From positions 310,001-374,000 of the forward strand of contig WHVD01000084.1 in NCBI GenBank assembly GCA_015178975.1: DNA of 64,000 nucleotides, written 5' to 3'. Positions 1,565-51,677 of the stretch are shown in pieces. The DNA comes from Hysterangium stoloniferum. Lineage: Eukaryota; Basidiomycota; Agaricomycetes; Hysterangiales; Hysterangiaceae. Both the position numbers and the translations under genes were made by a program. Position 1 is the stretch's first letter. Each line of letters starts with the position of its first letter. The notes beneath the pieces are model-generated. The model was not told the origin of the DNA. It did no database searches and was given only the letters and a program-made list of their open reading frames with translations.

Positions 1565-2460
1565 ATCAAGGGTCCAAAACCAATGCCTTGCAAACCAATC
1601 ACCACTGCCGGGCCCTCCATGGGCTCCCCATATCGGGCTCCACTCACTGCTGTCCAAATCTTGGTGCAGTGGGAGGAGCAGTATTAACAAAAAGAGGAAG
1701 TGGAGAAGAGGGCTAAAGAGGCCGAGGAGGAATTGGAAAGGGAGTACCAGACAGTGCTGGTCATGGAGAAGGAGGCTAAGGAGTAGAGGAAAAAGGATGA
1801 AGAGGAGGTGGTGCAGGTTGCTCCAGAGCATGCCAAAGCAGCCACAGAGAGGGCCATGGTTGCCATGGGGAAGGTAAGTTCTAATGATTTGCATAGTTGA
1901 CTTACTGACTTTTGGTTTCTAGCACAAGGCAGTAGAAGTGGAGTCCGAGTTCGAGGGGGAGGCTGAGAGTCCTCAAAAGGTAAGTGGCAGGTCCATGGGA
2001 ACATCTGGGTACTGACCACATTAACAAAAAACAAGGAAAACAGCTCCAGTCCACTTGGAGGCAAAGGATGACCTGCAGTGTTCCAGTTGTAATGACCAGA
2101 ACACAGACTGTTACTGGAAATCCAGGCGGGGACCAGGCTGTTGGCTCTGTGCACACCTCAAAGTGAGGTGCTCACTGGTCCATGAGCCCATGGGGTCCAT
2201 GGCATGAGAAACAGGTAGCTTAGACAGGCCTGGGGCCTTGGAGGACATTTTGGGGTGAATAGCCATGGGCATAGAGGCCCAGGACCAGTTGCTTGAAGAG
2301 AGCAACCAGATGCAGGAGGACTGTGGTGGAGACACTCCAGGGACTCCACGGGGAGTTCTGGGGGTTCTTGGCAGAATATGGCAGGTATGTGTATACAGAG
2401 CCCCAGGTTGGGAGTTCCAAGGAGCCTGGGGATGAGGATGGGGTCCCTGGGAGCTGGTAG
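1565..2460 (+). pseudogene. asZC antisense zinc-cluster/coiled-coil gene, copy 1 (decayed)
   Basis: This is the antisense gene of E1, lying between the LTR and the pol remnant and running against pol. A TATATAAAA box sits at 1510-1518. The start codon has decayed to ATC near 1565. Exon 1 (to 1873) encodes a charged coiled coil with a GPSxGSPYxAPL lead-in. Intron 1 is 1874-1922 (GTAAGT...CTAG) and exon 2 is 1923-1979 (acidic). Intron 2 starts at 1980, but its acceptor has mutated from AACAG to AACAA. Exon 3 keeps all six cysteines as CX2CX6CX9CX2CX6C, from codon 2079 to codon 2169. Several in-frame stops show it is dead. The Zn2Cys6 reading is from spacing only; the function is unknown. Confidence 0.75.
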
Positions 2461-2555
2461 AACTCCAAAAGGAGTTTAATGAAAGTGGGCAGAAGCATAG
2501 CCCTATAAAGTGAAAAGAAAAACAAATAATAATTTTTTATTAATTCTTCTGTCTC

Positions 2556-4424: not shown

Positions 4425-4834
4425 GTATCTCCCCATTTGGCCAAAATCCCAAGGAGGCTGAAAATCTAGATCTTGTTACATAAAACTTGTCGGGTACAAG
4501 TGTTGTGTCAAGACGTCATGTGACCTGGTAAAAAAAATTACATATAAAAATTGTAGGAATGCTGGCACTTGAATTTTCAACTCTTTCTCTTCATCCACAA
4601 TGACCATGGGTTCTGGTTCTAGGCCCTTCCCACTGAGAGTGACTGTAACCCCTGCATTGGATCTGAATGGCCCACTGAATGCACAAGATCATAGTCATCG
4701 GCTTGAAGAGAAGAGAAAGGCTCATGAGGAGGAGGAGCAGATAGAGAGAGAAGAACTGAAGGCGATAGAGGTGGTGGAGGTGGAGGAGAAGAGATTTGCA
4801 GAGGAGGAGGCTGCACGCAGGCATTGGGAGGCTG

Positions 4835-5652
4835 TGTTAGGATACACACACAGGCCAGGTTTCCGGAGAAACCCGCGGGATATCTGGTAGGACTTGGCTT
4901 CAGCTTATAGGCTGCGCCCTCGCTAGATCGTGTTGTCCAATTTCAAACGGACGGACGGGGATCCCGGGGAGTCCAGGCGGGGTTTGTGGATCATAGGTCG
5001 TAAGTCAGAGGTCGTGGGTCATGAGTCGAGATAGTTGAGAGGGATAGATGTGCCGGAGCCCACGGGCTCTGACTAGTGCAAGCGATGTGAATTAAGTAAG
5101 GTTTTAGAGTGGAAAATGTTATTAGATTACTGGGGGGAATCTAAGCTAATTTTCTGACTGGATTGTATGTACAACATCTGCCAGTTTATATAGACCGTGG
5201 AATGCATGACATACCAAATCCAGTAATGACGAAATGAAACTAACAAAACATGAAACGGGAATAGTAAACACCAAATTGGTGTTAGGAACGGAACGGAATG
5301 GAGCGGAGTCTGAATCGTGACAAAGCATAACCCATAACGGGAAACGGAGTGGGAGCGGAGTCCTAAATTGTGACAGGTCATTTGACTAAAACGGGAATGG
5401 GGCTCGATTAGAGCGGTGACGGGATTCTAAGTGGGGACCGGTGACTGGTGTGTGGGACGAAGACGGACATAGACAGAGACGGAGTCTGGGGAAGTCCGGT
5501 GACTGATATGTGTCGTAATGAGGTCAAACGTAACAAGTCTTGATGTAACGGAGTCCGGGCGGGAAATCCTATAAACAGACGATTGGTGCTTGTAGCGCGT
5601 GGGGGTGTACGGGTTAGTGCCCAGAGTCCGGCGGGATTGTTCGGTCGTAACA
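4835..5652 (-). repeat. Solo family A LTR, TSD GGCTG, nested in the family B LTR
   Basis: An 818-bp LTR, TGTTAGGATACAC...GTCGTAACA, is flanked by GGCTG at 4830-4834 and 5653-5657. It sits at the very first bases of the family B LTR, so it is the later of the two insertions. It is CpG-rich and carries the shared R-U5 motif at 4890-4925. Confidence 0.9.
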
Positions 5653-7461: not shown

Positions 7462-8311
7462 GGTGCAAGCCAAGGAGGTGAGGAAGAAGGTGGGAGGGTA
7501 AGATGAGTTGGGAGTGTCATTGCACTTGTGACCTCTCTGACATCCTTTTACAGCACAAAGCAACAACACCATCAGATACTGATGGTGAAGAGGATGAAGA
7601 GGAAGAGGAGGAAGTGGCAGGGCCTTTGAGCCATAAGGTACATATGTCTGTGTTCTTATTTATTATTTTAGTTTTTACTAATTTCAGTAACAGAAACAAA
7701 AATTGGCCCCCAGGGTGGGGCCTGAAACAATCCAAAGTGCAATCAATGCACTACCTGAGGTCAAGTCTGCCATCAATGGGCAAATGGTTGGGGCCACACA
7801 TGTGAAGAATGTGTGAGTCAGAAACTTGGGTGCATATTCCCAGGTACCAACAATAACGGGCCATATCAAGAGCATCAGGCAGATGCCTTAGAAGAACAAA
7901 ATCAGCTCCTGTTCACTTATCTTTTGGAGATGAGACAATATTGTGAAGAGAAATTGAAGAACGAAGTGCTAATTGGTGAACGGCTGCGAATACTAGGCTT
8001 GGGGTTGGACAACCAAGTGAGTGCAATGGTATACATTGGGGAGCAACTTGAACAATACTTGGAAGCTTTGGGTTCTGAAGGTGTAGGGCCTGGTGTTGAA
8101 AACGTTAAAGAGGGATTGAAGAACATTGGTGAAAAGGAGATATTGGAAGCCAAGGAAGAGGGGGAAATTGGAGGAGAAACTTTAGAGTAGTTAGAAATAT
8201 AACAGTTTTTAACTTTAAATTGTGCATGAACTTGAAAGTTGGAAATGCCAAACAGTGAGTAGAAAAATGACTTAAACAACAGACATGAGGCATAATCAGA
8301 AAAGGGTCGGT

Positions 8312-20937: not shown

Positions 20938-21582
20938 ATGGGACCAAAACCAATGCCAAAATGCATTATGCTGACCGCTGGGCCCTCCACGGGCACTCCG
21001 TATTGGGCGCCTTTCAGCGCAGCCCAACTTTTGGTGGGGCGAGAAGAGCAGCGCTGACTTCATGAAGAAGCAGAGAAGGAGGCCAGGGAGGCCGAGGAGG
21101 CCTTGGACAGGGTGTACGAGGTGGCATTGGCAGTGGAGGAAGAGGCTGTGAGGCAGAAGGAACGAGAAGAGGAGGAGGCTGTGTGGGTGGCTGCAGAGAA
21201 GGTGCGAGTGGCTGCAGACAGGGCTGCGGTTGTTGCGGGAAAAGTAAGTCCCAAATTCAACTTGTTGAACTTTACTGACTTATATCTTTCAGTGCAAAGT
21301 GACAGAGGTGGAGTCCGAGTCCAAGGGGGAGCCAGAGAGCCCCCAAAAGGTAAGTCTCAGGTCCGTGGGATAGCCGGGGAACTAACCATATCAACAGAAG
21401 GCAAGGAAGGTGGCACCAGTCCACCTACCCACATGGAATGACCTGCAGTGTTCCAGTTGTAATGACCGGAACACTGAATGCAACCGAAAGTCTGGCCGGG
21501 GTCCAGGCTGCTACCAATGTGCACACCTCAAGGCGAGATGCTCACTCGTTCACGAGCAGGCTGTGGGGTCCGGGGCATGAGA
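20938..21582 (+). pseudogene. asZC antisense gene, copy 4 (E4), truncated after the zinc cluster
   Basis: Exon 1 is 20938-21243 (102 codons) with one stop, TGA at 21055-21057, in a context expected to be CGA. After a GPSTGTPYWAPF lead-in it encodes an Ala/Glu-rich coiled coil. Intron 1 is 21244-21292 (GTAAGT...TTTCAG). Exon 2 is 21293-21349, acidic. Intron 2 is 21350-21397 (GTAAGT...CAACAG). Exon 3 opens KARKVAPV and has a fully intact CX2CX6CX9CX2CX6C, codon 21449 to codon 21539. The reading stops at TGA shortly before the sequence jumps into RT at about 21582. The Zn2Cys6 assignment rests on cysteine spacing plus flanking Lys/Arg. Confidence 0.8.
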
Positions 21583-22614
21583 CACATTTTTTACCATTCG
21601 TGAATAAACCATGTTGTCTGAGTCTCCAGAGAACTTCACGGACTTTTTTGTCGTGTTCCATGGGGTCCTTGGAGTAGATAAGAATGTCGTCCAAGTAAAC
21701 AATAATGCATACATCGAGCATGTTGGAGAAAATGTCATTGATAAAACACTGAAAAACAGATGGAGCATTGGTGAGTCCAAAGGGCATCACCAACCACTCG
21801 AAGGCCCCATAGTGGGATCTAAAAGTGGTTTTCCATTCATCGCCCACGGCAATCCAGACCAAATGATAGGCATGTTTGAGATCTATTTTGGTGTAAATCT
21901 GGGCATTCCACGGAGCATCAAGCAGATCAGATATGAGTGGAAGTGGATACTTATCCTTTTTGGTGACAGTATTGAGTCCTCTAAAATCAACACATAGTCA
22001 AAGGGATCCATCCTTTTTTCTGACAAACAGAACAGGTGCTCCAAAAGAAGACTTTGAGGGTCGGATAAAACCTATGGACAAATGTTCATCCAGGAAATCA
22101 CAGATTGCGGAAAGTTCTGTGGATGAGAGCAGGCAAATATGTCCTAGGGGTGGCTGGGCGCCGTCTTCGAGATTGATTTTTAAGTCGTATTCTCTATGGG
22201 GTGGAAGCCGGTCAGCTTTCCGCTTGCTAAAAACATCCGTGAAGTTGTGATATTTCTCTGGGATGCCTTCTAGGTCAGCGGCTTGCTCAGATTCAGATAC
22301 TGGGGTTGAAAAATGTCCAGTTGCTTCATCAATTTTTAAGTTGATAGTGAACGCCTGGGACCCATCCATTTTTGAAGCCCTAATAAAAGCTGCAGCATTA
22401 ATCAGAGAAATAGACGGAGGTGCCATGGGTTCCAGGGAAGCCATAGGTGCCGTAGGGATCACAGGAGTCCTCGAGACTGCAGGTGCTGGGAAGGCCATGG
22501 GTGCTGTGGAGGCTGGGACGGGCGCAGTTTCCTCGGCTGCTGTGGGGGTCCGGAATGTTATACTGTTAGCTATCCAGTCAATCAATGGATTGTAGCGGAT
22601 AAGCCAGTTGTGTC
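21583..22614 (-). pseudogene. E4 pol fragment: end of protease and RT up to the GKKC block
   Basis: On the minus strand this encodes the NSITFRTP-like end of the protease, a Pro/Ala/Thr linker, the PEKYHNFTDVFSKRKADRL block, and RT with [19 protein letters not shown] and [11 protein letters not shown] (about 21665-21700). Translation is open over two long stretches. Its 3' side is joined to asZC copy 4 by a deletion, and its 5' side is interrupted by insertion X at 22620; the protein continues at 30821. Confidence 0.85.
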
Positions 22615-22945: not shown

Positions 22946-23487
22946 TGTTAAGTGCCGTGTCGGGAACTTATTCCAGAACTATCGGGAAGTCACCGGGAAG
23001 TCGGAAACTCGTGGATAGGGTCAGGATGCGCCTCTACGCAAACGCTCAATGTCCTTAATTTCGGAAGTGAACTAACGACGGAAGATATGGATATTCAGAG
23101 TTCCGAAGAGTTCCGAATATCGAGCGTACAGAAAGACGGGAGGAGGAATAAGAAACTAAGTCGATATCAGATCTAAAGTAAAGTACAAATTCACGGAAAC
23201 TAATATAAGTCTACTCGTTATTGTACTACAAACTGAGACCATAATAAGATGGAAACGGAAGTGTTCTTAAAACGGAAATACAATAAGACATATTAGGAAG
23301 ACAATATTCCGAGACGGGAATACAACAACAAACGAGTGAATACTTGTCAATGGACAAATTACCAAATGCGGAACAAACGAAGAACGCGGATGATACGGTA
23401 ACTATGATGTTCCGTAGTCAGATATCGGATATCGAAAGTGGGAGATCGGAAGTCGGATATTGAAACATCCGGGAACGGGTCGTAACA
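22946..23487 (-). repeat. 3' LTR of E5 (542 bp)
   Basis: It is near-identical to 30034-30596 except for a net 21-bp deletion around 23029, which removes CTTCAGCTTATGTGCTGCA, the R-U5 motif shared by families A, B, D and H. The deletion must post-date integration. Confidence 0.95.
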
Positions 23488-23500
23488 GTACCCCCCTGTT
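23488..23500 (-). promoter_or_regulatory. E5 polypurine tract
   Basis: On the sense (minus) strand AACAGGGGGGTAC abuts the TGTTACGACC start of the 3' LTR. This is the usual position and composition of the plus-strand primer of LTR elements. Confidence 0.85.
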
Positions 23501-23615
23501 AGGCCGAAATCCCATAGAGGCGATTAGGTACTGAGTGTTTGAAGCGACGGCTGACTGTTATGTGTCGTGAAATTTACGCAATTATGGAGGTGAGAGTTTC
23601 GGTTATTATTCTGAG

Positions 23616-23623
23616 TATAAAAA
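23616..23623 (+). promoter_or_regulatory. TATA box of asZC copy 5
   Basis: TATAAAAA lies 56 bp upstream of the ATG at 23672 and outside the LTR. Boxes at the same distance precede the other asZC copies, so the gene appears to have its own promoter rather than relying on LTR transcription. Confidence 0.6.
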
Positions 23624-23671
23624 CCTCCAAATATTCGAATTAACGTTTTTGTTTCTTTATCCACGACTTGT

Positions 23672-24814
23672 ATGTCGATTCATCGGCCGTTATTCATCAC
23701 TACCCCGGAAGACTCAGATACCGAAATATCCGTACTTCAAAAGATGTCGAAGGTCGCAGAACTTCAACAAAAACACCAGAAAATGGAGGAGTTGAAGCGA
23801 CGACAGGAGGAGGAGGAAAGAGCGTTGATGCAGGAGTTGAAAGATGCGGAGGAGGCGGAGAAGCGGGAATTGGAGCGGGTGAAGGCGGAAAAAGAAAAAG
23901 AGTTGGCGAGGTTGCGGAAAGTGATGGAGGATCGGAGGTTGAAGGAAGAAGAAGTGAAGAAACAACAAGAAGCTGAGGTGGCGGAAAAACGTAAGGAGGT
24001 AAGGGAAGGAAAGGTGAGTCCAATTCCATAGATTTCCGTGGTTCCAACCGATAACTGTTACGTACAGCGAAAAGCCATGGAGGTGGAAGTAGAGGGAGAA
24101 GCTGGGCCTTCGAGTACTAAAGTGAGTGTATCTGTAACGGGAACGGTAGTCGTTTAACTTTCGAAACAGAAACCAAAGGTCAAAGCTCCGGAACGGATGG
24201 AAATTGCCCATGACACTCCATGTGCTTGATGTTCCGTACGGAATATAACTTGTTGGAAACAGAAGGTAAAATGGGGTGGAACTTGTTATCCTTGCGCGGT
24301 CCTCAAACTTCCGTGCACTCTTGCTGCGAAAAGGGTTCCGAAAAGCGAAAAGGCTCAAAAACCTACCATCGCGGAAGGTTCAGGAGCGACCAAAACTGCG
24401 GAAACTAAGTTGCCGAGTACGGATGGTATGGGCGTTGAGCTCCTTAAGGAATTGGTCGATACAATGGTCTTCATCGGGGTTGAGATGCGGGAAATGCGGG
24501 AAACACTGGATCGCCATAATGAGATCCAGGAGAAGGGTTTCCGTTCGTTGGTCCGGAATTTCCGGAGGCAAAACGATTTCCTGGAGAAGATGATGGTTAG
24601 TATCGGTGTAATCGCGGTATCTGAACGATTTGCCGATAAGGCGAAAAACCAGTCGAACGATCCATTGGCGGAGTGTGTGGAGCGGAGATGGGGGTCGGGA
24701 AAAGAGGAGAGTGAAGATGAGGAGGTACAGGATATGGTGGAAAGTGCGGAAATTGCTGAAGAGCTGGAGGTTGGGACGGAAGGTGGATTTGGGGTGTCAG
24801 AGACTTTAAGATAG
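23672..24814 (+). CDS. asZC antisense zinc-cluster/coiled-coil gene, copy 5 (best preserved)
   Basis: The three exons are 23672-24013 (114 codons), 24068-24121 (18 codons) and 24170-24814. Introns of 54 nt (GTGAGT...TACAG) and 48 nt (GTGAGT...AACAG) are both in phase 0. Residues ~25-114 are a Glu/Lys/Arg coiled coil. Exon 2 is short and acidic. Exon 3 begins KPKVKAPER, then has CX2CX6CX10CX2CX6C between codons 24221 and 24314 (TGA at 24227-24229 inside the first CX2C). A basic stretch, a second amphipathic segment (LLKELVDTMVFIGVEMREMR) and a Glu-rich tail follow. Total ~346 codons. It is convergent with pol, 89 bp between stops. The cysteine spacing fits a fungal Zn2Cys6 DNA-binding cluster; a role as regulator or nucleic-acid binder is inference. 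The TGA makes this allele doubtful. Confidence 0.8.
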
Positions 24815-24903: not shown

Positions 24904-27900
24904 TTAGAGTGATGATAAAGGTCCGGGTTTGCCTGGATAAGCCGTGTGGAAGTCAGTAACAATTTCCATAGCATGTCCAAGTTCTGTGGCCAATATCCAT
25001 GAAGTTTCCTCGTCGGTACCTTCATAACCTGCCCATTTAACTAAATAGAGCAATTTACAAGTACGTCGGCGATTGTCAATTTTAGAATCCAATATTTCGG
25101 AAACTTCGAATTCGGGTTCTCCATCAATGATGACCGGAGGGGACGGAGGTTGAGTACGTTCCGGGAATGAGTTAGGAACACAAGGTTCTAACATGGAAAC
25201 GTGGAAAACGGGGTGGACTGCTCGCATACTGTCGGGAAGATGGAGAGTCCATGAAAGTGAACCGGCTTGTGCTATAATTTCAAAAGGTCCTAAGAATTTC
25301 TCAGCGAGTTTTTTAGAAGGTCGGGTAGTACGGAAGAATTGAGCTTTTACAAAAACCTGATCACCAACTTTAAAATTAGGAGGCGGGATCCTGTTTTTGT
25401 CCGCGGAACGTTGATAATGTTCCTGTGCGGAAGAAATAGCTTTCCGAAGTTCTTGATGTAATTCGTCGAGGTCGGTAATAAATTCTTGAGCACGGACAGA
25501 AGCCAAATCTCGTTCGGAATGTACTGTGAGATTCGGATTATAGCCTTTATTGGCGAAGAAGGGAGATATGCCGGTGGTTGCATTCGGGGAGTTATTGTAG
25601 GCGAATTCCGCGATCGGAAGAAGGGATTTCCAGTTGTCCTGTTGGTAATTACAATAGATGCGGAGATATTGTTCCAGTGTTTGATTAACGCGTTCCGTTT
25701 GTCCATCACCTTCCGGGTGATATCCCGAGGTGAAGTGTAGTTTCATGTCGAGGGCTTTTCCGAGGGCCTGGAAGAAATGGGAGACGAACTTGGAGCCTCG
25801 ATCGGAAGTTACGTGAGATGGAACTCCGTGTTTGGAAAATACATGAATAATGAAAAGTTCCGCTAATTGTAAGGACGTGATTGTATCATGAGTGGGTATG
25901 AGAATGCCTTGTTTCGAGAATCGGTCCACAACGACTAGAATGGATGTAAAGCCTTCGGAAGTCGGGAGTTGTTCGATAAAATCCATGGAAATTGAATTCC
26001 AAGGTTTTTCTGGTATCGGGAGTTGCTTGAGAAGGCCGTACGGCTTATGCCTCTGGGTTTTGGAGCGTAAGCAGGTGGTGCATGACTTACAGAACTGAGT
26101 TACGAAATCTCGGAGGTTGGGCCAAGTATATTCTCTACGGATTAAACCAAGAGTATTGTTGATGCCGTAATGTCCGGAGATTGGATGATCGTGTTTATAC
26201 TGAAGTACGCGGAGTCGAAGATTGTCGGAATCTGGAACGTAGATACGTCCATCGAGACGGATAAAACCTTGAGAGTCTTGTGACCATCGGGGTTGGTTGG
26301 GATTGTCGGGAATGTCTAAATGTGGCTTGAGGGCCGGGTCGGAAGTGAGTGCGGAAAGGATATCTTGATGTAATTGCTCAATGTCCATAATCATGACGCT
26401 ACGCATAATTGGATAGTAAAGGGAAGTTGCTCGGATAGATGCGGAAAGTTGTTGCGTTGTAAAAACCGGTTTCAGGTTATGTGGATTAACAACAGCATAG
26501 TTACTTTCCCCCTCTTTAGGATAGACGTCCCATCGTCGAGTCATGGCATCTGGTTTTCCACCAAGACGTCCGGGTCGGAAACGGATAATCATGTTGAAAG
26601 CGGAAAGAAATTCAGACCAACGGGCCTGCCAGCGGGTTAAAAGTTTAGTGGTAGAAAAATATTCGAGATTTTTGTGATCGGTAACGACGTCAACGGGAGT
26701 TGCGGAACCTTCGAGATAATGGCGCCAATGTTTGAAAGCTTCAAAAATTGCCAAAAGTTCCTTATCATGAACGTCATAATTGAGTTCGGATACTGAAAGT
26801 GTCCGAGAAAGAAATGCGACCGGATGAATTTCACCGTCAGACTCTTGAATGGAAAGAATCGCGGCAATTGCATAATCGGAAGCATCGGTTTCCACAATAA
26901 TCGGAAAATCAGGTTTCCAATGGGAAAGAATCGGGGCCGAAGTGAAAGCATTTTTCAAAGTCTGGAAAGCGGAGCGGCATTTATCGTCAAAAACCCATGG
27001 TTGAGTTTTACGGGTAAGACGAGTGAGTGGTACTGTAATATCCGAGTAGTTCCGAATAAAACGACGGTAAAAGTTGGCGAAACCTAAAAATGATTGAATG
27101 TCCTTGACCTTCCGTGGTTCGGGCCAGTCACGGACAACTTGAACCTTGGTTTCATCCATACGGAGACCATCAGGGCCGATGATGAAACCTAAGTATTCAA
27201 TAGAATCCATGTCAAAATAACATTTTTTACCGTTGGCGAAAAGACCGTTTTTACGGAGTCTTCAGAAGACTTCACGGACCTGTTCATCGTGAAGAGCGGG
27301 ATCCTCGGAAAATACCAAAATGTCGTCCAAATAGACTATAACACATACGTCAAGCATGTCGGAAAATATATCATTAACAAAACATTGAAAAGCGGAAGGG
27401 GCGTTGGTAAGGCCGAACGGCATAACCAACCATTCAAAGGATCCATAGCGAGTCCGAAAAGCAGTTTTCCATTCGTCACCCTCGGCAATTCGAACCAAAT
27501 GATAGGCGTGTTTGAGGTCTATTTTGGTGTAAATTCGAGCTTTCCGTGGGGCGTCGAGTAAGTCGGTAACGAGTGGGAGTGGATACTTATCTTTCCGTGT
27601 GATGGAATTTAATCCTCTGAAATCGACACAGAGTCGAAGGGAGCCATCCTTTTTACGGACGAAAAGGACGGGTGCTCCATACGGAGACTTTGAGGGACGG
27701 ATAAAACCTATCGACAAATGTTCATCCAGGAACTCCCGAATAGATGAAAGTTCCGATTGGGATAATGGGTAAATAGGTCCTAATGGAGGGTTTGAACCGG
27801 GCTCAATATCGATTTTTAAGTCGTAGGGCCTATGTGGTGCAAGCCTGTCAGCTTTTTGCTTACTGAAAATGTCCACGAAATCATGGTATTTTTCGGGAAC

Positions 27901-28563
27901 TCCTTCCAGATCGGCTTTTAGCTCGGATAATTCTGGAGTCGCAAAACGTCCAGATGCTTCATCAACTTTTAAGCTGATCGAAAAACATTGTGAACCATCC
28001 AGTTTACTCGCCCTAACAAATGCCGAAGCATTGATGAGAGAGATTTTTGGGGGCTCGGAAGTTTCGATAGAAGCCGGAGATGCCGTTGATGCCGAAAAGG
28101 CGTTGGCCGGAATAGACGCTGCAGGAGGAACGGAAGTGTCGGGAGTCCGGAAAGTAATACTGCCCAATACCCAGTCAATCAACGGATTATATCGGGTGAG
28201 CCAGTTGTATCCAAGAACTGCCGAACAGCTAGAGTCCAACTGTGTTACGAAAAATGTAACCGTCTGGGATGTTCCACAAGGGAACCGGATAGACATGTCG
28301 CAGGCTTGAGTAATTGCCGTATTGCTAGTGCCGTCAAACAAACGCAAGGAAATTGCGGGAACAGAATGGAGTTTCAGATTATGTTTCGTGGCAAAGGTGG
28401 TATCTACAAAACAGTGTGTGGAGCCGGAATCTATTAGAGCTCGGAACACTAAATTTCCAAGAAAGTCAGAGACGAGTTTTACAAATAAAGAATCGGGATT
28501 AGAGAGAGCAGACGTGTTGAGACGGACAACCTCGGAAACACGGAGAGAGGAGAGAGTCAACAC
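24904..28563 (-). CDS. E5 pol polyprotein (one in-frame TGA)
   Basis: This is a chromovirus Pol read from 28563 leftward. Aspartic protease ALIDSGSTHCFVD is at residues ~43-55. A Ser/Ala/Pro linker leads to RT, with [29 protein letters not shown] and YLDDILVFSED. TGA at 27262-27264 stands where the E10 relative has CGA. After it come the thumb, RNase H (VETDASDYAIAAILS), the H2C2 zinc (CKSCTTC), the integrase core (VVVDRFSKQG, TSDRGSKF, GDGQTERVNQ: D, D, E all present) and a C-terminal chromodomain with YLVKWAGYEGTDEETSW. It ends PGPLSSL. Pol lies in the same frame as gag, behind a single TAA (28597-28599), so readthrough or reinitiation would be needed. Confidence 0.92.
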
Positions 28564-28596
28564 AACCCTCTGTCCGTGCAGATTCCGGAGGGTTGC

Positions 28597-29999
28597 TTAC
28601 TCTTTTTTCGACTCCGTGGCGGGTTTATCCTTAGACGTTGTAGTCGTAGTGGAAGTTGCCGCGCGAGCCTTGGAAGAGCTAGATTTAACGGTACAGTTGG
28701 AAACCTTGTGTCCACCTTTTCCACAGAAAAGGCAGAGGTCGTTGTCCATACGCCGTTGTTTCTCCTTCGGGGTGAGTTTACCGTCGGGACCCAACAAATG
28801 GGAAATGTCGGGTTTGTCGGAAGTTGACTGTTTTTCCTTGTTGGATTTCTTGTCTTTCTTCCGGTCGGAATTTGATTTGCCAGTATTAGTGCCAGAGCCG
28901 GTATTATTGCCTGAGTTGTTGCCGGAAGACTTGCTAGTCGACGCCTTGTTGTTCTGAGAACGTTCCGTCGGGTTCTCTCGAGAGACCTCGGCTTTTCGTT
29001 CCCAATAACGGTGTTACGACCGTGTCGCAACCCTATCGGCCCCGAGGTTATCGCCACTTGTCAACGTTTCAAGTCATCCTCTCGGAAACCATCGGCCCCG
29101 AAGCTGACGAATGTTTCGCGAAGATCAAACTCCATTTACGCCCACGTCAAATAACTCGTATTGTCTGGTCAAACTTTGATACATCCCCTTTATTATGTTG
29201 ATCCATTCAATCTTATGTTTTGCATATGTCTATCTATATTTGTAGTCCTCGAACCATTTCCTTTTACCGTAATCCCGCTCTCGGTTATCATCGGCCTCCG
29301 AACTAATCATAAACTTCCCGTTCATCGTGCGGCGAGGGTATTGAACTTGACGAGATAATCGGAAACTCGTTGATTGTCCTTCATCTTGAGCGTCATTAGT
29401 TCGTTTTCTGCTTCGCTGGATTGATCGTAAGGTCCGAAATTAGTTTCCAGTTCTTCCACGAAAGCATCCCAGTCGTCGAGCCATACGGGTGTCTCGTCGG
29501 ATATTCCGGATAGTCCGGGTTCGAACCAATCCTGAGCGGTATCCTTGAGATATGAGAGCGCAAAATTGACTTTTCGACTGTCGGATTTAAAAGCATTGGG
29601 TCGATCACGGAAACTGAAACGACATTGAAGAAGGAAATTCTTCAATTTTTTCGGATCCTTGCCAGTAAATGGTTCGGGTTCTTTGACTCCGGTGCGGGAT
29701 GATTCTTTACTATCCTCAGCGGATTTCAAGTAATCAGCGAATTTGGAAATGGAGTTAAAAAGCAACATTCCAGTTTGATCATCGGAGGGTTTTGTCGATG
29801 TATCCGGTTGATCTTCTGCTTCGTTGTCGGTAGTGTGGGGAACATTGGTGTCCTTCGTTACCTCGGTAACCTCCTTGGTAACTTCTTCGACAGAAGCTGA
29901 TGTTGTCGGCTGAATTGGGGTTTCGGGTTGGGTGGTGTAAAGTTGCAACGGGGATTGAAGTTGGGATGGTCCTTCGGCAGCTTTGCGTTTGGGACCCAT
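28597..29999 (-). pseudogene. E5 gag, interrupted by a family D LTR fragment
   Basis: It starts ATGGGTCCCAAACGC at 29999, 34 bp past the 5' LTR. The N-terminal part (29999-29327, 225 residues) has a Pro/Thr/Glu-rich leader and the gag capsid core (LDDWDAFVEELETNFGPYDQ; DYLVKFNTLAAR). The reading then runs into an LTR fragment (29326-29012). It resumes at 29011 with a RYWERKAE-like block, a Ser/Asn/Lys linker and a perfect zinc knuckle CLFCGKGGHKVSNC, ending at the TAA at 28597. By comparison with E3 and E4, about 50 residues of capsid are missing at the junction. Confidence 0.88.
29012..29326 (+). repeat. Truncated family D LTR inside E5 gag
   Basis: It starts TGTTACGACCGTGTCGCAACC and is nearly identical to the first 315 bp of the LTR at 59633, then stops at ...CTTCCCGTTC. 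The right part of the LTR and ~150 bp of gag are absent, so an LTR insertion was probably followed by one deletion. No TSD can be checked. It is very young by its CpG content. Confidence 0.85.
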
Positions 30000-30033: not shown

Positions 30034-30596
30034 TGTTAAGTGCCGTGTCGGGAACTTATTCCGGAACTATCGGGAAGTCACCGGGAAGTCGGAAACTCGT
30101 GGATAGGGTCAGGACGTCGGCTTCAGCTTATGTGCTGCACCTCTACGCAAACGCTCAATGTCCTTAATTTCGGAAGTGAACTAACGACGGAAGATATGGA
30201 TATTCAGAGTTCCGAAGAGTTCCGAATATCGAGCGTACAGAAAGACGGGAGGAGGAATAAGAAACTAAGTCGATATCAGATCTAAAGTAAAGTACAAATT
30301 CGCGGAAACTAATATAAGTCTACTCGTTATTGTACTACAAACTGAGACCATAATAAGACGGAAACGGAAGTGTTCTTAAAACGGAAATACAATAAGACAT
30401 ATTAGGAAGACAATATTCCGAGACGGGAATACAACAACAAACAAGTGAATACTTGTCAATGGACAAATTACCAAATGCGGAACAAACGAAGAACGCGGAT
30501 GATACGGTAACTATGATGTTCCGTAGTCGGATATCGGATATCGAAAGTGGGAGATCGGAAGTCGGATATTGAAACATCCGGGAACGGGTCGTAACA
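30034..30596 (-). repeat. 5' LTR of E5 (563 bp) with promoter
   Basis: The sense strand runs TGTTACGACCCGTTCCCGG...GGCACTTAACA. The predicted TATA box is at 30309-30316, the predicted transcription start near 30283, and the R-U5 motif at 30114-30138. R-U5 would be about 250 nt. Confidence 0.9.
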
Positions 30597-34445: not shown

Positions 34446-34474
34446 GGTCTACATGGCATTGTTTGGGACCCATT
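34446..34474 (-). pseudogene. asZC copy 3, displaced first codons
   Basis: On the minus strand ATGGGTCCCAAACAATGCC starts at 34474 and matches the opening of copy 4 (ATGGGACCAAAACCAATGCC) apart from a 1-nt loss. It was separated from the rest of exon 1 (19913 leftward) by E4 and the family G LTR. Confidence 0.75.
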
Positions 34475-42690: not shown

Positions 42691-42966
42691 TGATCTGAGT
42701 ATAAAAACTTCCAAATATTCAAAATAGTGATTTTCTTTCTTTAACCATGACTTGCATTGTGCAATCCTTTATTTACCACCACTCTGGAAAGTTCAGAAGC
42801 CAAGATTGCCAAAATTGCTGAAATGTCGAAGGTAGTAGAACTTCAATGAAAATGACAGAGGATGGAGGAGATAAGATGACAACAAGAGGAGGAGGCAAAA
42901 GAGTTAATGTGGGAATTGAGGGAGGTTGAAGAGGTGGAAAATGGGAGTTGAAGTGGATTGAGGTGG
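42691..42966 (+). pseudogene. asZC antisense gene, copy 6 (family B type, fragment)
   Basis: It begins GATCTGAGTATAAAAACTTCC, matching the TATA region of copy 5 (23607 onward), and continues through the start ATGACTTG and an exon 1 relic with GAACTTCAA, GGAGGAG and GAGTTAATG words at the same spacing. It is strongly CpG-depleted relative to copy 5. It is cut by the family G LTR at 42967 and bounded on the left by the palindrome. Confidence 0.7.
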
Positions 42967-43487: not shown

Positions 43488-46287
43488 TAAGTTTCTAAAT
43501 GGTCTTTCATCAGATTAAAGAGCCTGTGGCCGCCTGCATGAGCTCCTTCGAAAGGATTATCATGTATCAGCTTGAGTATGGTTGTCGTCATGCTGCTAGG
43601 AACGCAGATTCGACTTTTCCAGTCCAAATATCGAAAGAACAATAGCTTATTCTTACCGATAAAATAATGTGAAGGAGTGGCTACCATGTTTGGAGAAATG
43701 GGATCGGCGGCGTAATAATTCCTGAAGGTGGGATCTTTCTGGTATCCATCGTGAAGTTCCTTAGCGTAATTCTCATTGATCTCTATAAGCAATTGTGGAT
43801 TCGAGAGAGTAAAATCCGCCTCATCAGTCTCATCGTTTCTGGGAAGGTTGTGCAAGTCTCATTTCGTTTGGGGGACCTGTTCGACTGTTCCGACAGGTTC
43901 AACTAACTCGTGATGAGTGAGAAATACGGCCTTTTCCACTGGTTTGTTCTCCCATAATGTCTCGTTGTCGTTCCGGTTATAAGAATCCACTACGATTGGT
44001 AGGAGATCGTCTCTCATGGGGCTAGCACAGTCAGGTACTCGAGGAAGTCTAGATAATGGGTCAACGTTGCTGTGTATCCGTCCTGCTCTATGTAGGATTT
44101 CCAGACCGGGGTATGCAGCGTATACCGCCCCCCATGTGGCCAGTCGACGATTAGTATTCTTGTAAGATCTGGCCCATTGTAATGCCGCATGGTCAGTGAT
44201 CAAAAGGATATGTTCTCCCTCGATGAAGGGCTGGAAATGGACCAATCCTTCTTTAGCAGCTAACGCTTCTTGCTCTGTGGCTGAGTAGTTACATTCCGCT
44301 TTCTTGAGCGTACGGCTCCAATAGGCGATAACGTGTTCGACTGTGACACTGGTGTCATCAAAATCTGCGGCCCAGGAATCCGTCCAGGTGAATTCCAGCT
44401 CCTTGGTTTTATAATGAGTAATAAAAATGGGGACGTCTCGTGATTGATCGAAAGCTGCCCTTGTTGGGCATAAATTTTCGTATCCTTTAGGTCCTTAAGC
44501 GTCATTTTTTGTATTTGCTGGAGGCAACATCCCAGCGCGAAGTCCGAAGCGTCTGTGTATAACCTATAAGGCATACCGCTCACAGGGTGTCCAAGTACTG
44601 GAGCTGAACTCAATGCAACTTTGATGTCTTCAAAAGCTCGGGCATGTTCTGAATCCCAATGCCAATGAACTCCTTTCTTTAAGAGGTTGAAAAGTGGAGC
44701 AACCATCCAGGAGTAGAATGGTATGTAAGCAGAGAAGTACAGAACCATTCTGAGAAAACATTGAAGGTCTGCTATCTTAGAAGGCGTGGCTAATTCCAAT
44801 ATAGCGGTGACCTTTTCTTGATGGGTCGAAAAGCCAAGTCTAGACACCTTATGTCCTAGTAGTAGAATCGAATTATACCCCACATAGCACTTTTTGGGCG
44901 AGAGAGTGATTCCCGCTGCAATGATGGCTTGTAGGACCTGGTCCAAATGCTCTAGATGATCGTCCCATGTCTTAGAAAAGATCACGATGTCATCAATATA
45001 AACTAGGCAGAATATCCATAAGTAGGGTGCAAGTACGGTTTGCATAACCCTTTGGAATATAGAAGGTCCATTAAGAAGTCCAAAGGGCATTCTCCTGAAT
45101 TGCCACAGTCCTCGATGGGATCTGAAGGCTGTCTTCGGCTTGTCTTCCTCTAACATTTCAAGTTGGGTAAAACCAGCTAGTGCATCGAAGGAAGATAAGA
45201 TGTTGGATCCCGAGAGCGCCTGCATGATTTCCGATTGATGCGGCAACGGAAATTCATCGGGAACCGTTAGGCTGTTCAACTTTCTATAGTCAATCACTAC
45301 TTGTGGTTTCCCTTGCGATAGACGACAAAGGCTGGCACCCCCCAAGGACTCTTGGACGGTTCAATCACTCTCTGTTGGAACCAAGTGTCCATTTGTTCGT
45401 CAATGACTTTCCTATTAGCCGGGGAGGTTGGAAACATTGACATTGAAATAGGTTGTGCGCCATCTTTTAAGGGCACATTGACCTTGACATCTACTTGTCC
45501 TAAACGCCCGTCTACTCCAAAAGCTAGGACATTCTTAGTTAATACTGACTCCAAGCAAGAGGAGACGTCGGTAGGGATGTCAGGACCTAAATTAACTAGC
45601 TTATGCAGATCTTCCGCGTGAAACGTTTCTGTGGTGGCAACTTCTGACGTTTTGGGGCCTGCCGGATCGAAATCATCTGCGAGTTCCCGTTCCAGGGGCA
45701 ACCCGGAAGATTGAGGATTAAGGACACGTTCCTCTTCTATTCTTGATAGACTTTCGACGAGATGGGCGATCTTGGTTGCCGTCGACTGCATCAATGCCCT
45801 CTCAGTTGAAGATCTAGGAGTCTGGGCCCATTTGTTCGCGTCGTGAATTAATCCAACGGTTTCCCCTCGTCTGATGATTCTTGGCGTCAGAGAGGGATTA
45901 GCGAGAGGTATCGCGGCACGTTCCCTAGAGATGGCGGGTGGGAGCAGCTAGTATACTCCCATCGTCATTCTGTAAGACAACTCCCTCGACTATCCATTGG
46001 TCACCAATAAGATCTCCTACAAAGATTGGTACTGATTGAGCTGATTCCGGTTCTATAGTACAATCCTGTGAGGCCCGTGCGACTCTTTCAGTATGCACTC
46101 CTTTGTCTGGTTTGGAAGTCAATTCAGACGAGTCATTGGCTAATTCCTCAAAGGGGATCTTGCTAATCGAAAAGGTTAAAGGCTGCGGCTCCTTGGAAGA
46201 ACTGGCTGGAATAGATCCTGCTCTCCCAGGCAAAATCAATCTGGAACCCAGCGGTTGGCCTCGCAGTGTCCTGATCTCATAGTTCAC
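43488..46287 (-). pseudogene. E7 pol: RT, RNase H and start of integrase
   Basis: A Ty3/gypsy lineage distinct from E1-E5. From the right: a linker (46287-45925), the start of RT with VDVKVNVPLKDG and WGVPAFVVYRK (45794-45297), then in another frame VVIDYRKLNSLT, QFRRMPFGLLNGPSIFQ and LVYIDDIVIFSK (about 44990-45020, a YIDD box). RNase H LYTDASDFALGCCL follows near 44540, then TDHAALQWA and DPLSRLPR. The N-terminal integrase has GAHAGGHRLFNLMKDH. Frameshifts lie near 45320 and 44470, with TGA at 43856-43858. It ends at the inversion breakpoint. Confidence 0.85.
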
Positions 46288-50335: not shown

Positions 50336-50456
50336 CACAGCCTATAAGCTGAAGCCAAGTCCTACCGGCTTTCCTGTGGGTTTCTCCAGAAGCCCTCCAA
50401 TAAGCTCTGTGTATGCAACTTAACTGTATTTAATAAGCCTAAAGAGTAGCTGTGAG
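50336..50456. repeat. Small LTR remnants at the inversion breakpoint
   Basis: 50337-50424 is the last ~88 bp of a family A (old variant) LTR, including the CCTATAAGCTGAAGCC motif and ending GCAACTTAAC. 50425-50456 is an inverted piece of the family G LTR. Confidence 0.75.
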
Positions 50457-51677
50457 GCGAGGATGTTGCATGACTGCGTGGCGTACGCTCACAGCTGCGA
50501 CATATGCTAGAAAACTAAAATTGATCATTCCGCTCGACAAGGAGCTCTTCGACCCGCGGATGTACCCCTAAGGCCGTTTGAGGTTGTCTCGATGGACCTG
50601 ATTACCAGATTGCCTCCTTCTACAGAGGGTGGTTATTCTGCCATCTTTGTCGCTGTGGATAAAGTCACGCATTTCTTAATCTGTGAACCCACCACTTCAG
50701 ATCTATCGGCAGAAGGATTCGTGCGAACCTTCGTGAATAAAGTAGCCGCTCCTTTCGGCCTGCCTTCAAGGATAATCTGTGATCGAGACAAGAGATGGAC
50801 CTGTAGGTTCTGGAGAGAAGTCTGCAAAGTATACGGAAGTGCCCTTGCAGTATCCTTGTCCCACCATCCTCAGACCGACAGTCAAACGGAGAACGCTAAT
50901 GCTATTGTGGAGCAAATGCTCAGAGCGTACTGCGCCTCTTCGAAGGAGGAATGGTCTAAATGGACTCAAGTAGTGGCTCATACCTACAATTCGACAGTTC
51001 AAAGCTCAACAAGCTATGCGCCGGCCTTTTTGCTGATGGGCTACTTACCAAGAGGAATGTCTAGCTGTCTGGGAGGGGATGACCCTGTGGTTCCCAGAGA
51101 ATTATCGGATAGCCCTGTAGCCGACCAATGGATCTTAGAATTGGAAAATCACCAACAAGCGGCGTGGGATTCAATTGCATGAGCACAAGAAACCCAAGCT
51201 CGCAGTTACAACAAGAGACGGAGATTAGTGGAAGATATCTCAGAGGGAGATTATGTTCTGATTAATCCCCATTCTCTCGAGCTCGTCGAAGCCAAGGGAC
51301 CCGGAAGAAAACCTATACAAAGACGGATAGGGCCATTTGAGGTCTTGGAAAAGATCAATCCTCAAGTCTTCCGACTCCGCATTCCCTCGGAATATCAATT
51401 ACATCCAGTGATTAATCGAGACCATCTTAAAAAGTACCACCTCTCCCCTAAGGAATTCAGATCCAGGGAGCTACTCGAGAACCCTCGAGAACTCAATCAT
51501 AACGATGAGGAGTACGAAGTAGAAGCTATAGTAGGGCACAAAAAGCATCGAAATCAACTCCTTTTCCAGGTTCGATGGAAAGGATATGGACCGGAGGAGG
51601 ACACTTGGTTAAACGGCAATGACCTTCGTAACGCTCCCGCTCTTCTTAGAGCTTACAAGACTATTTATCGAATTTAA
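50454..51677 (+). pseudogene. E7 integrase core, linker and chromodomain
   Basis: It begins with the second half of the H2C2 zinc domain (HDCVAYAHSCDIC, then TAG), next HSARQGALRP and the integrase core: MDLITRLPPSTEGGYSAIFVAVDKVTHF, ICDRDKRWTCRFWR, HHPQTDSQTENANAIVEQ (D, D, E retained). TGA at 51181-51183 interrupts the frame (RAQE-type context, from CGA). The frame continues with ISEGDYVLI, a GPF linker block and a chromodomain LLFQVRWKGYGPEEDTW, stopping at 51675-51677. The front part of this protein is at 43488 onward, inverted. Confidence 0.88.

Follow-up and report, generated by a model that had tools for sequence, protein, structure and literature searches.

An intron-bearing antisense gene with a zinc-cluster-like motif in one clade of chromoviruses of Hysterangium stoloniferum

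Antisense accessory genes between pol and the 3′ LTR are already known in plant LTR elements, and the brtn gene of the Boty-like elements is a fungal antisense case. The latter is reportedly the subject of a paper by Zhao et al. on the Boty-like retrotransposons of Botrytis cinerea (Virology, 2011). According to the accessible parts of the published accounts, most copies of a plant element family carry such a gene in the interval from pol to the 3′ LTR (PMC7264820, PMC11963269), the antisense gene of Grande has been reported to have its own promoter and a nuclear product (PMC7264820), and Retand elements carry TRP28 ORFs with predicted DNA binding between pol and the 3′ LTR (PMC11963269); the word 'intron' is absent from the main text on the Retand TRP28 ORFs as far as it is accessible (PMC11963269). 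In Botrytis cinerea, brtn is described in the available text as an antisense extra gene of elements whose gag-pol carries a CHROMO domain (PMC4227169, PMC8365987). A further system is HBZ/APH of HTLV-1 to 4, where, in the accessible text, a spliced antisense transcript from the 3′ end encodes a nuclear protein that regulates LTR-driven transcription (PMC10186651). The literature searched, which excludes most subscription papers, yielded no account of a gene of this kind from Basidiomycota: 'antisense' is absent from 'LTR Retrotransposons in Fungi' in its main text (PMC3248453), and the available parts of that paper and of PMC5408684 contain nothing like the gene described here, asZC.

In this study, we analysed a 64,000-nt stretch of DNA (the window) of Hysterangium stoloniferum, an agaricomycete reported to be ectomycorrhizal (PMC7550596, accessible part), and searched its 111-Mb genome, in which the window lies on contig C538, for related copies. 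The window contains E5, a chromodomain-bearing Ty3/gypsy chromovirus whose gag-pol is encoded by the minus strand. We re-derived asZC as a plus-strand gene of three exons at 23672-24814 (Table 1), located between the 3′ LTR of E5 and the end of its pol (24904), and both its TATA box and its two phase-0 GT-AG introns of about 50 nt were as the original prediction had described them. That prediction missed a premature in-frame TGA at 24227-24229; because this stop falls inside the first CX2C pair of exon 3, the E5 copy is not intact. The prediction had listed further copies in the window, and six of them were found again by protein similarity; another piece, at 34474, gave no asZC exon match by protein similarity and showed DNA similarity only to the segment upstream of the gene. 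The Gag of E5 has a CCHC knuckle (CX2CX4HX4C) at 28734 (minus strand), and none was found in the E5 asZC gene, all six CCHC matches within the window lying outside it. Given that Gag has its own knuckle, asZC is no substitute for a missing nucleocapsid motif. No Rfam family and no tRNA was found within the window. Further, more distant retroelement pol sequences, with 26-34% identity to that of E5, are present at 44048-45491 and 50397-51668.

Table 1. Positions, in window coordinates, of asZC, its relatives and the parts of the E5 element
Feature	Position	Strand	Basis or remark
TATA box (putative promoter) of asZC	23616-23623	+	TATAAA, 56 nt before ATG 23672
asZC exon 1, charged, helix-like N terminus	23672-24013	+	ATG at 23672
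asZC intron 1, phase 0, 54 nt	24014-24067	+	GTGAGT..CAG
asZC exon 2, acidic, 54 nt	24068-24121	+	Gene plan
asZC intron 2, phase 0, 48 nt	24122-24169	+	GTGAGT..CAG
asZC exon 3: basic NLS-like start, six-cysteine cluster, further charged segment	24170-24814	+	Sequence
asZC copy, group 2	1571-1879 + 2028-2504	+	Protein similarity
asZC copy, group 3/4	exon 1 4600-4854, exon 3 7699-8169	+	Protein similarity; exons split by nested LTR elements
asZC copy, group 2	19913-19686 + 19487-19049	-	Protein similarity
asZC copy, group 2	20938-21198 + 21398-21595	+	Protein similarity
asZC exon 3 fragment, group 3/4	37666-37232	-	Protein similarity
asZC exon 1 fragment, group 1	42751-42942	+	Protein similarity
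3′ LTR of E5 (relative to gag-pol)	22946-23487	-	95.2% identity to 30034-30596
Polypurine-tract-like run (GGGGGG on minus strand), adjoins 3′ LTR	23488-23497	-	Sequence
E5 pol: protease, RT, RNase H, integrase, chromodomain	24904-28596	-	Pfam matches; two open pieces; antisense to asZC
5′ LTR of E5	30034-30596	-	LTR pair comparison

Genome-wide, the relatives of asZC fall into four types that share one plan: a charged exon 1, an acidic exon 2, an exon 3 with six cysteines, and two phase-0 introns of about 50 nt. The four exon 3 queries gave 975, 869, 4245, and 507 first-look candidates, of which about 150 per query were scored. Identity to E5 is 67-100% among the E5-type exon 3 places (the best 150 of the 975), and a hand count shows 114 of the 150 places listed to be free of stops. 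Group 1 is the E5 type (41 loci read) and group 2 the L069 type (39 loci); group 3 consists of L089, L092, and the shortened L090, and group 4 of L093 and the shortened L081. Exon 3 identity is 24-28% between groups 1 and 2 and 64% between groups 3 and 4, and the six cysteines align in all four types. In each type exon 2 starts with RKA, is acidic and ends with SPK or SPQK, and a TATA-like box stands about 55-60 nt before the ATG. The gene plans of groups 3 and 4, read from few copies, have GT-AG introns and the box 57 nt before the ATG (TATAAG in L081). Protein database matches were confined to two 'hypothetical proteins' of Hysterangium stoloniferum, with a further protein search giving no match; no match was found in NCBIfam for three asZC pieces, and no relatives were found in viral contigs.

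Individual copies have been rearranged. A deletion in L081 has removed exon 3 together with the greater part of exon 2 and has about 8 nt of common sequence at its ends, and L090 has lost exon 3 by its own, separate internal deletion. The L081 deletion was considered as a family trait and rejected: among the best 40 of 374 matches, the junction is joined at one place only, while 17 others keep both flanks, 836-860 nt apart from start to start, and the deletion thus looks like a one-off. Comparison of L005 with L028 gives 85-90% identity at gene positions 480-660 and a drop to 67-78% at 660-840, beyond the cysteine cluster, whereas identity is 90-100% in the rest of the gene. This pattern suggests either recombination between families or local diversification.

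The placement of asZC relative to pol was highly consistent. A pol end adjoins 68 of the 80 asZC loci, in every case antisense and tail-to-tail and in none in the sense orientation, as had been proposed for all copies with pol still attached; the other 12 have no pol in range. At 40 of the 41 group-1 loci, 84-115 nt separate the end of the pol match from the match to exon 3, and at the remaining locus no pol was found. When pairs of reverse transcriptase (RT) and asZC matches lying within 4 kb of each other were compared, 57 pairs of groups 1-3 were antisense-downstream among the matches listed (for RT, the best 150 of 3086), with two exceptions, one on the same strand at 3294 nt and one antisense-upstream at 3899 nt. 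Group 4 adds 15 RT places, all antisense-downstream among the matches listed, so that 72 of 74 pairs share this arrangement and no pattern of sense-strand or random placement was found. At 4-40 kb, the pairs of groups 1-3 among the matches listed were 20 antisense versus 18 same-strand. An asZC piece lies within 4 kb of 73 of the 150 RT places among the matches listed, and these lists mix lineages. In a hand-picked sample of 12 pol-side regions, an asZC piece was present in five of the six whose pol is close to that of E5: L088, L089, and L092 have the exon 3 cluster, L081 and L090 are shortened, and none was seen in L091. It was found in none of the six sampled elements with a distant pol. 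The difference indicates that asZC belongs to one chromovirus clade and not to all gypsy elements, and it narrows the original view of the gene as a regular part of the window's gypsy elements to that clade. The E5-type gene has the place and orientation that define antisense accessory genes, between pol and the 3′ LTR and antisense to gag-pol.

The introns and the promoter motif are well preserved. Introns 1 and 2 are bounded by GT-AG in all 41 group-1 copies and in 32 and 31, respectively, of the 35 group-2 copies that could be mapped (4 of the 39 were not). In group 1 they measure 52-54 and 47-48 nt, respectively; in group 2 most are 46-54 nt long, with extremes of 33 and 72. Exon 2 has a length of 54 nt in all 41 group-1 copies, and of 57 nt in 27 of the 35 group-2 copies mapped. 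Between −100 and −30 of the ATG, a TATAWA motif is present in all 41 copies of group 1 and in 25 of the 39 copies of group 2, against shuffled expectations of 0.10 and 0.12, respectively. A block resembling GCCGAAATCCCA..GAGGC is seen at 23503-23521 of the window, between the polypurine tract and the asZC promoter, and a similar block stands upstream of asZC in L069, L081, L089, L090, and L092, which represent all four groups (one change in L092); its strict pattern was matched by 32 of 41 group-1 and 6 of 39 group-2 copies.

Sense-strand introns are lost when an element copies itself via RNA, whereas antisense-strand introns are unrecognised in the genomic RNA and persist. Given that the introns of asZC persist on the antisense strand, the whole protein must come from an antisense transcript. 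No intron-less copy was found among the copies examined. L067 (341 aa), L068 (339 aa), and L070 (264 aa) were tried as intron-lost copies and rejected, their introns being present with the frame running through them; in L067 and L068 the whole gene with introns retained is a single open frame of about 340 aa. The deposited Hysterangium stoloniferum gene model P0002 (BU17DRAFT_68404) is joined at both predicted GT-AG introns. Its residues 81-235 are encoded on contig C537. However, P0002 weighs little alone, because the copy is decayed, its first 80 residues are not mapped, and the model has an odd extra junction inside exon 1 (28 nt across, off frame).

In the predicted protein, the exon 1 product is a long charged segment, helical or coiled coil as judged by eye. 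In 40 of the 41 copies of group 1, the joining of exons 2 and 3 creates a K-K/R-x-K/R motif, the consensus of a nuclear localization signal (NLS). The same holds for 28 of the 29 group-2 copies that were readable, the other 10 of the 39 having been dropped for an unmapped or off-frame exon 2. Since the motif is formed across the junction, it is encoded by the spliced mRNA only, and from its sequence we infer that it is a nuclear signal. The cysteines of exon 3 are spaced 2-6-10-2-6 in groups 1, 3, and 4 and 2-6-9-2-6 in group 2, which fits the CX2CX6CX5-12CX2CX6-8C pattern of the Zn(2)-Cys(6) family (PF00172). Mean conservation of the six cysteines is 0.99 and 0.97, versus 0.89 and 0.71 for all exon 3 columns. 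Profile A1 had four PDB matches at E up to 1 (LEU3 twice, PPR1, and DHT03 protein A), those to the Zn(2)-Cys(6) chains of LEU3 and PPR1 being at E 0.03-0.47. At E up to 10, PF00172 matched six of seven A1 members (best 0.0052) and two of four A4 members (best 0.18); in a separate search at E up to 1 it matched the group-2 sequence only, with 10.2 bits. None of the asZC sequences compared reached the curated PF00172 cut-off of 21 bits, the four-type profile A4 gave weak matches to XIAP chains, which are not zinc-cluster proteins, and none of the 62 PF00172 matches in the genome coincides with an asZC place (by eye, among the matches listed). As a consequence, we call asZC Zn(2)-Cys(6)-like and not a member of the family. 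The group-3 exon by itself had no match among PDB chains, the structure predicted from two sequences of the window was poor (mean pLDDT 55), and no Pfam match of asZC to TRP28 (PF04195), bZIP or a known silencing suppressor was found.

Ordinary Zn(2)-Cys(6) transcription factors carry one cluster; on contigs C56, C115, C309, and C37 of this genome, PF00172 matches lie side by side in apparent single open frames. The usual targets of Zn(2)-Cys(6) proteins are CGG triplets. Upstream of asZC, CGG/CCG exceeded all but at most 10 of 200 shuffles in five of eight hand-picked sequences but not in the other three. CGG-N13-CCG occurred in six of the eight (1.0 expected), a spacing chosen post hoc from 48 and differing in position between groups, and no CGG site keeps its place between families in these eight sequences.

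Taking these features together with the layout, we give about an even chance to asZC being an accessory gene of one Ty3/gypsy chromovirus clade that acts in trans to tune element expression or nuclear steps, in the manner of HBZ. The gene is probably transcribed from a TATA promoter of its own that lies immediately inward of the 3′ LTR, on the strand opposite to gag-pol. The sense genomic RNA could not splice antisense introns, which would let them survive each round of retrotransposition, with the spliced antisense transcript alone encoding the whole protein. The protein may then enter the nucleus by means of the junction motif, pair through its helical segments, and bind nucleic acid through the Zn(2)-Cys(6)-like cluster; as a predicted nuclear zinc-cluster protein it would act on the LTR or the promoter, like HBZ.

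Other roles could be assigned to such a protein. It is possible, though unlikely, that it antagonizes silencing by countering methylation of the element's cytosines or RNA interference by the host. Transcripts of a gene opposite gag-pol would be complementary to genomic RNA and hence a handicap where RNA interference operates, so that retention of the gene in this layout suggests a compensating benefit; however, Pfam offers no similarity to a known suppressor, and the NLS-like motif and the cysteine cluster fit a nucleic-acid binder at least equally well. We consider it less likely still that the protein joins the pre-integration complex as a cofactor of nuclear import or integration and takes no part in transcription. 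The NLS-like motif would suit this role, and a similar one has been suggested for plant antisense accessory proteins in the accessible part of PMC7264820, but E5 already has a CCHC knuckle in its own Gag and a chromodomain in its own pol.

The median dN/dS was 0.21 (range 0.08-0.56) for exons 1 and 3 of groups 1 and 2, in a sample of 14 of 41 group-1 and 10 of 39 group-2 copies hand-chosen for divergence and readability, and was thus not near 1, a value that the original prediction had held to speak against it. Pooled pN/pS in the proposed frame was 0.28-0.34 (groups 1 and 2), and four of the other five frames gave 0.91-1.46. The mirror frame on the minus strand, whose third positions coincide with those of the proposed frame, gave 0.33-0.45; stops in the mirror versus the proposed frame numbered 88 versus 18, 102 versus 42, 76 versus 74, and 110 versus 50. 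In group-2 exon 1, two other frames had fewer stops (67 and 50) than the proposed frame (74). Pooled pN/pS in group 1 was 0.28-0.29, compared with 0.23 for the last 900 nt of pol (11 of 41 group-1 loci), and the distances between asZC copies are correlated with the corresponding pol distances (Mantel test: exon 1, r 0.54; exon 3, r 0.47; 0 of 2000 permutations) over 37 of 41 group-1 loci, three having been left out by hand and one by coverage.

These data argue against the antisense RNA being the functional product, with double-stranded RNA or interference limiting copy number and the protein incidental. Retrotransposon antisense transcripts can act as RNA, according to the available text of PMC7264820, and the layout would give about 1.1 kb of complementary RNA; nevertheless, the dN/dS of about 0.21, the conserved cysteines, and the constant length of exon 2 point to selection on the protein, and we regard this explanation as improbable. 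Host-gene capture by retroelements has been described (PMC7264820, accessible part) and two asZC relatives are filed as host proteins, but it is very improbable that asZC is a passenger captured once from the host and carried without function, given four types with the same plan, purifying selection in groups 1 and 2, and a divergence that follows that of pol.

That asZC is a protein-coding gene with a conserved intron plan, present in one chromovirus clade, opposite in strand to each pol end found next to it and, in groups 1 and 2, under purifying selection, is supported within this genome. To this extent the proposal of a retained accessory protein stands, with the qualifications that the E5 copy itself is stopped and that the gene is not in all gypsy elements. 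The maintenance by selection of a zinc-cluster-like product suggests a real regulatory protein of the element. To return to the trans-acting accessory gene that we prefer, its most specific form, a retrotransposon zinc-cluster transcription factor whose NLS is assembled only by splicing of the antisense mRNA and which regulates its own LTRs as HBZ does, is put forward tentatively, as somewhat short of an even chance. If true, asZC would be a natural retroelement gene that keeps its introns because they are invisible to the RNA of retrotransposition. Introns on the antisense strand, which can be removed from antisense mRNA only, provide a built-in test of the gene, and the presence of several types in one genome provides natural replicates. 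In addition, two Hysterangium stoloniferum 'hypothetical proteins' can now be seen as relatives of a retrotransposon gene.

In comparison with the known systems, asZC shares place and orientation with the plant antisense accessory genes, as far as the accessible accounts of these describe them. However, Retand belongs to a plant, non-chromovirus lineage, whereas asZC is found in a basidiomycete chromovirus and has no TRP28 match, and the six-cysteine cluster of asZC is not mentioned for the plant genes in the available text (PMC7264820, PMC11963269). Like the Zn(2)-Cys(6) proteins (PF00172; LEU3, PPR1), asZC has CX2CX6CX9-10CX2CX6C spacing and weak profile matches to them; unlike these proteins, it falls below the Pfam cut-off, is encoded by a mobile element, and has a long charged N terminus ahead of a cluster that lies in the middle of the protein. 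In the accessible account, HBZ is expressed from inside the 3′ LTR and is a bZIP protein, whereas asZC combines a cluster of six cysteines with a TATA box that lies outside the LTR; the likeness between the two is one of analogy, not homology. The brtn gene, compared here by description only and from partly available sources, is like asZC an antisense gene in a chromodomain-bearing fungal LTR element, although its host is an ascomycete and that of asZC a basidiomycete. With asZC, the known range of antisense accessory genes now takes in one clade of basidiomycete chromoviruses.
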